Source of the DNA: Pelagicoccus sp.
Lineage (GTDB): Bacteria > Verrucomicrobiota > Verrucomicrobiia > Opitutales > Opitutaceae
Length of the DNA: 59,399 nt
NCBI GenBank assembly: GCA_028284635.1
Contig: JANQRJ010000049.1
Location: 1 to 59,399 of the forward strand
Direction: 5' to 3'
The position numbers and the translations under genes were made by a program. Under the pieces are notes generated by a model, which worked only from the letters and a program-made list of their open reading frames with translations, had not been told where the DNA came from and did no database searches. Below are positions 16,124-16,387 of the stretch, piece by piece; within the stretch, counting starts at the first letter, position 1; every line of letters begins with the position of its first letter.

Positions 16124-16301
16124 TGGTGGTGGGAACAGGATTGGCTGCGTGAGACGCAGGTCCTTCGGACTCATGCTTCGCATGCCCCATCTGCGCTCGC
16201 GTTGCTCGCTCCGTCGAACCTTTCGGTTCTCATCCTGTTCCAATGACGTGTACTGAAAGAACTGGCGGCGAGACTTTCGCGGCGCTGTCCCGCTGAAGAA
16301 G
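16124..16301 (-). repeat. tRNA-Tyr tail unit with repeated tRNA 3' end (rtT-like)
   Basis: On the minus strand, the last 19 nt of tRNA-Tyr including CCA (16320-16302) recur exactly at 16142-16124, a period of 178 bp. Within the unit, 16241-16232 (GGAACAGGAT) is perfectly complementary to the copied tRNA end (16141-16132). The interval holds mini-hairpins: GAACC-GAAA-GGTTC (16229-16216), CATGC/GCATG, GTCC-GAA-GGAC and TGCGT/ACGCA. About 20 nt past each CCA are also similar. A related unit follows tRNA-Pro. Confidence 0.85.
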
Positions 16302-16387
16302 TGGTGGTGGGAACAGGATTCGAACCTGTGTAGGGTTTCCCCAGCAGATTTACAGTCTGCCCTCGTTGGCCACTTGAGTATCCCACC
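16302..16387 (-). tRNA. tRNA-Tyr (GUA)
   Basis: Acceptor stem GGTGGGA/TCCCACC, anticodon stem-loop CAGACTGTAAATCTG with GTA at the anticodon, a long class II variable arm, a T arm ACAGG-TTCGAAT-CCTGT and an encoded CCA (16304-16302). Length is 86 nt including CCA. It is followed by the tail unit with a second copy of its 3' end. Confidence 0.96.

Follow-up and report, generated by a model that had tools for sequence, protein, structure and literature searches.

Escherichia coli makes a known stable RNA, rtT (rttR; tyrT operon, RF00391); as annotated (1287066-1287236), it terminates at the CCA of a copied tRNA tail. In the accessible literature, rtT is treated as a by-product of tyrT and of some further gammaproteobacterial tRNA operons (PMC2965389, PMC4986893, PMC7657543, PMC2658671). 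The same papers point out covariation and a tandem G.A in RtT (PMC7657543), note that some BIME-based attenuators resemble rtT (PMC2965389), and report, for a Pasteurellaceae species, RNAs of the RtT family close to Asn and Lys tRNAs (PMC4986893); given these Asn and Lys cases, a link between rtT and non-Tyr tRNAs is already published for the gammaproteobacteria. REP/BIME palindromic repeats are likewise short, hairpin-rich and gene-free, but differ from the RtT-type units described here in that the latter are tied to tRNA genes and have ends matched to the host tRNA. A search of the open-licence literature found no account of the family's spread or of host-matched arms. rtT itself is already known; what is added here is its wide spread, the host-matched arms and evidence at the DNA level.

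The window analysed here, a stretch of 59,399 nt from a Pelagicoccus sp. (contig JANQRJ010000049.1), carries such a unit behind its tRNA-Tyr gene (Table 1). As the initial annotation had reported, the last 19 nt of the tRNA (AATCCTGTTCCCACCACCA) are exactly repeated at a start-to-start spacing of 178 bp; the chance of such a 19-mer match within 500 nt is ~2e-9. The start of the unit, GGAACAGGAT (16241-16232), is indeed perfectly complementary to ATCCTGTTCC within the copied tail, and the unit closes into a fold as had been proposed: arm and tail copy are paired in both the RNA and the DNA predictions (z of -4.49 and -4.45, respectively; 0 of 200 shuffles were equally good). At least four hairpins with GAA or GAAA loops had been claimed; three can be made out by eye (GAACC-GAAA-GGTTC, CATGC-GAA-GCATG and GTCC-GAA-GGAC), while the fourth has a CTC loop. 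The direct repeat at tRNA-Tyr extends ~23 nt beyond the CCA into the spacer.

Table 1. Features of the two RtT-type units in the window.
Feature	Position	Strand	Detection and remarks
Host tRNA-Tyr (gta), intact	16302..16387	-	ARAGORN and Rfam RF00005
First spacer (58 nt), tRNA-Tyr to unit; no intrinsic terminator detected	16244..16301	-	
RtT-type repeat unit, 120 nt	16124..16243	-	R1, 94.5 bits (R1 built partly from this unit); Rfam RtT, 34.1 bits
Arm GGAACAGGAT, antisense to host tRNA-Tyr nt 59-68	16232..16241	-	
Conserved hairpin GAGAACC-GAAA-GGTTCGAC	16213..16231	-	Near-invariant in 97 aligned units
Variable part with small hairpins	16143..16212	-	
Exact copy of the 19-nt tRNA-Tyr tail, ending CCA	16124..16142	-	
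Opening part of the second spacer; diverged copy of the first spacer	16101..16123	-	42-nt repeat at 86% identity
Second host, tRNA-Pro (cgg)	24887..24963	+	
Second unit, with incomplete 15-nt tail copy (25120-25134)	25026..25137	+	R1, 56 bits

The unit behind tRNA-Pro is a true second copy according to R1, a model for which 29 units from the window's taxonomic family, and no E. coli sequence, were used; its score (Table 1) is that of a sequence which is itself among the 29, and its fold is weakly better than those of shuffles (z -1.70). Genome-wide, RtT-type units occur at four of the 39 tRNAs found by ARAGORN (Tyr, Pro-cgg, Glu-ttc and Gln-ctg), with one unit at each; tandem units are found in relatives. 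A weaker, fifth model match (35.5 bits) lies ~190 nt behind Leu-cag of the same genome. Separately, the tRNA-Thr (cgt) of this genome is accompanied by a 16-nt tail copy (L014, ~1715-1730), and the hairpin-rich interior differs from that of the units; it is perhaps a decayed or other variant.

Comparison of sequences gives good support for homology: the window tRNA-Tyr unit is a diverged relative of E. coli rtT. The Rfam RtT model matches it over the full length (model positions 1-130; E 2.6e-5, 201 bases searched), at 34.1 bits and hence below the RtT gathering score of 45 bits; at gathering score, Rfam finds three tRNAs in the window and nothing more. In the reverse direction, R1 recovers four units at E. 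coli tyrT/tyrV, with 29.0-33.9 bits and E-values between 1e-7 and 3e-6, and the similarity is significant and full-length both ways. Like rtT, the window unit has a CCA-ending tail copy behind a tRNA together with a complementary arm, and the order of parts is the same in the two: a tail-antisense arm, GGATGAGAA...GGTTCGAC, hairpins and an exact copy of the tRNA tail. Tandem arrangement, as in rtT, is seen in relatives, with single units in this genome. The window units and rtT differ in the middle part, and in that the window family sits behind many host tRNAs rather than tyrT; moreover, the window units are known from DNA sequence alone. The kinship with rtT, which the initial annotation had suggested by way of a shared 178-bp period and copied length, is therefore borne out by the full-length match and the working reverse search, beyond that number. 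The period itself is apparently a coincidence: neighbouring units in relatives are spaced at 159-183 bp, and in one case at 398.

Rfam RtT, applied to 20 relative loci, picks up eight units at 25.5-41.4 bits (E up to 1). At Rfam thresholds in 20 pattern-match loci from other bacteria, RtT reaches its score in two and sX4 (RF02223, a Xanthomonas sRNA) in one. Most of the repeat family is missed at Rfam thresholds. As to sX4, its matches in locus L139 (3268-3743) cover tRNA-Ser and the start of the repeat array, and recur along the array. Given this span, sX4 seems to include a piece of an RtT-type unit, and the sX4 family may be part tRNA, part RtT-type repeat. It differs from the units described here in being modelled jointly with the tRNA, and is without a match in the window at gathering score.

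Comparison of a pattern of 22 fixed bases with the genome collection yields at least 116 stretches, where ~12 chance matches are estimated for the collection as a whole. Among the matches listed are Alpha-, Beta- and Gammaproteobacteria, Verrucomicrobiota, Chlamydiota, Saccharibacteria and bins whose assignment is less certain; one bin among those listed is archaeal, with a weak match. In loci L131-L210, a same-strand tRNA lies within 700 nt upstream of 88 of the 100 units, and the tail of the upstream tRNA is present (at most 3 of 18 mismatches) in 68. Within the window's family, R1 has matches in 31 of 61 genomes (E 0.01); a broader model, R2 (E 1e-4, strict filters), has matches in the window's phylum (35 of 288 genomes) and in the class of a Xanthomonas (58 of 185). 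For 20 chosen hits outside the window's family, a tRNA was found within 400 nt upstream in 17; for one of the other three the tRNA is 567 nt upstream, and the last two have a tRNA-like tail for which no tRNA was found. A 14-mer search gave an upstream tRNA at 206 of 282 places, a lower bound for true units, since the 282 include chance hits in other DNA (e.g., L035). Taken overall, unit hosts comprise 24 isoacceptor types, and phyla with units include Pseudomonadota, Verrucomicrobiota, Chlamydiota, Myxococcota and others. Unit lengths vary freely, and the core variant of the window's unit also occurs in Opitutae loci L192 and L196.

The initial annotation had made its reading depend on three properties: occurrence beside other tRNAs, a conserved interior and covariation in homologues. 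All three are seen, with units behind tRNAs of many types, a core that is kept across units and phyla, and an excess of double-sided changes (see below). Such a distribution suggests a class of tRNA-bound DNA repeats that has received little notice.

The general layout runs as follows: tRNA, spacer, an arm antisense to host nt 59-68, the GAGAACC-GGTTCGAC hairpin, variable hairpins, a host tail from ~nt 59 to CCA and, often, a copy of the spacer. The core is common to different tRNAs and phyla, whereas arms and tails fit each host tRNA. Across 118 nonredundant units preselected for having a tail copy, the arm forms 7.16 of 10 possible Watson-Crick pairs with its own tail, compared with 5.56 for shuffled tails (sd 0.10; maximum of 5.90 in 1000), and the excess is restricted to nt 59-68. 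Helices P1, P2 and P5 of 97 aligned units, preselected in the same way, carry 269 double-sided changes, compared with 95.9 in shuffles (sd 9.7). Leu, Val, Glu-ctc and Arg-cct hosts have a base other than A at nt 59; in all 10 readable rows of this kind the arm agrees with the host, and in two of the 10 it agrees with the unit's own tail. The eight rows in which host and own tail can be told apart represent about three lineages (Leu-caa, Leu-cag and Glu-ctc). This match is hard to explain through selection for pairing within the unit.

Spacer copies are frequent: the first 20 nt of the two spacers are at least 80% alike in 61 of 110 loci. In loci without a further unit, this degree of likeness is seen for the first 20 nt in 23 of 60 and for the last 15 nt in 5 of 60. 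A clean, full duplication of ~80 bp is seen at the E. coli tRNA-Ser locus only. At three loci (L057, L068 and L080), the second spacer opens with a different short sequence (TCCTTCG or TCCGTCG), close to which lies GGATG; this is maybe a further repeat family.

Copy number differs within E. coli. At one tRNA-Ser locus, where the flanks of strains D9 and DETEC-P351 are identical, DETEC-P351 contains an additional 181 bp: exactly one unit, with 79-bp direct repeats around the core. Strain C7 is likewise without the 181-bp unit. Among 5426 E. coli genomes, the tyrT-type unit was detected in 4680 and the Ser-type unit in 3319, the latter going undetected by megablast in 2107. The strain differences show gain or loss of whole units, not jumps, and deletion is as possible as insertion. 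Comparison of the cores gives a mixed picture. A Val unit has a core 93% like that of a Leu unit of another genome, while its arms and spacer differ. Of 53 family units, six have their nearest core at a different tRNA within their own genome, where 2.4 would be expected, and 11 have it in another genome at the same tRNA, compared with 3.0 under random choice; core transfer and inheritance in place thus both occur.

Several properties bear on whether pairing within the units is that of RNA or of DNA. In the 97 aligned units, P1 mismatches at nt 63-68 comprise 48 G.U/U.G and 37 A.C/C.A, and P5 mismatches 18 and 14, respectively; when only P1 mismatches flanked by pairs are counted, 11 are of the G.U type and nine of the A.C type. 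In the control, 222 tRNAs of the same loci, G.U outnumbers A.C by 57 to 4 in the acceptor stem and by 86 to 6 in the T-stem. The arm mismatches of the units are without wobble preference, which speaks against RNA selection, because pairing selected in RNA should resemble the tRNA control. For the inner hairpins, the balance of G.T to A.C depends on the setting (7 to 2 in one, 11 to 12 in another). Intrinsic terminators were detected in 66 of 133 first-unit spacers, where shuffles lead one to expect 6.3; they are found in 44 of 66 such spacers in Gammaproteobacteria and in 11 of 46 in the window's own family, and none was detected in the first spacers of the window's two units. The 181-bp repeat of the E. 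coli tRNA-Ser locus itself contains a terminator-like hairpin with a T run. Among 340 hairpin loops there are 127 C(GNA)G triloops, which form very stable DNA mini-hairpins, 12 GNRA tetraloops and no UNCG. A pure DNA reading has to contend with the known E. coli RNA, the near-invariant P2 and the purine bias of the units' sense strand (G.38, A.24, C.265, T.116).

With a probability of roughly 0.5, we favour, over a dedicated RNA, a DNA repeat whose ends are copies of the host tRNA gene, and we infer that such repeats move. The conserved core would be a gene-free, non-autonomous DNA repeat. On arrival at a tRNA gene, both core ends would be extended by copying the host gene outward from the T-loop, for a short distance on the left (giving the inverted arm) and a long one on the right (giving tail and spacer). 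The tRNA would stay intact because the element extends itself by copying the host gene. Arrays would later grow and shrink via recombination between direct repeats, and arm pairing would decay in the manner of unselected DNA. Some units are co-transcribed with the tRNA (rtT RNA in E. coli), but RNA function probably does not maintain the family. Of the three proposals in the initial annotation (structured RNA, processing decoy or very small mobile element that rebuilds tRNA 3' ends), the mobile element fits best, minus the rebuilding: the upstream tRNA is whole, and what the element holds is a second copy of the tRNA tail, often along with one of the spacer.

A functional structured RNA—co-transcribed with the tRNA, excised with a tRNA-like CCA end and serving as a sponge or regulator, the role proposed for E. 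coli rtT, with arm-tail pairing under selection—is possible, if on balance doubtful. The double-sided changes, the strong fold of the window tRNA-Tyr unit, the near-invariant sense motif, the downstream position on the tRNA's own strand in 88 of 100 cases, the annotation of rttR as an RNA, and the covariation and tandem G.A noted in PMC7657543 all speak for it. As a general function, it is opposed by the mismatch pattern, with no wobble preference next to a strong one in the tRNA control, and by the terminators ahead of half of the first units; the many E. coli genomes in which megablast detected no Ser-type unit and the fit of the arm to the host rather than its own tail at nt 59 also count against it. 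Pairing without wobble preference would be accounted for by an old tail duplication that is neither mobile nor functional, in which quasipalindrome correction (template switching in the hairpin during replication) keeps arm and tail matched and rare conversion between tRNA genes spreads the cores. Although core inheritance in place is accounted for as well, we consider this explanation unlikely: correction should fit the arm to its own tail, yet nt 59 fits the host where the two differ, and the sharing of one core motif among many phyla and many host tRNAs is difficult to achieve without transfer.

Tail copies running from T-loop to CCA are typical of attachment sites, and in L048, L055 and L063 the units come after a tRNA 3' half that stands by itself, as at the far end of an integrated island. 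That the units are plain attachment-site remnants is nevertheless highly improbable, and we reject it: the interior is conserved across phyla rather than unrelated, the units are tandem in relatives, and the ~100 bp between copies is too small for an integrase gene. To return to the host-copied DNA repeat that we prefer, a more far-reaching form of it would describe bacteria-wide selfish repeats with tRNA genes as landing site and template, the host 3' end being written onto both ends, perhaps by reverse transcriptase copying of the tRNA molecule. In retroviral replication, reverse transcriptase copying of a tRNA stops at position 58; such copying would fit, because both host-derived ends start at ~nt 59, beside that position. 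We hold this form to be quite improbable, and know of no tRNA-templated mobility of this sort in bacteria.

If these units are considered together, rtT becomes one case of a widespread kind of repeat behind tRNA genes for many amino acids in several phyla. The host-matched ends provide a handle on how the repeats form, and gains in strain collections could be read for donor and template. Duplicate tRNA tails are added exactly where islands integrate. The units also call for caution in that covariation alone is insufficient to call such stretches RNAs; pairing scores are high, though the mismatches look unselected.

A few neighbouring features deserve mention. Behind the tRNA-Tyr unit lies a queuosine synthesis gene (Pfam Queuosine_synth; window 14857-15930); queuosine occurs in tRNA-Tyr, and the adjacency may be a coincidence. 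Another palindromic repeat is present in two copies, at window positions 14219-14312 and 15998-16078, one of them directly behind the tRNA-Tyr unit; the copies have direct repeats of 53 and 33 nt and arms that are 80-91% complementary. Elsewhere (L005), a 10-nt tail copy (GGGGCAGCCA) lies 337 nt downstream of tRNA-Asn, and the interval between the two contains an apparent small reading frame that is GIY-YIG-like by eye.
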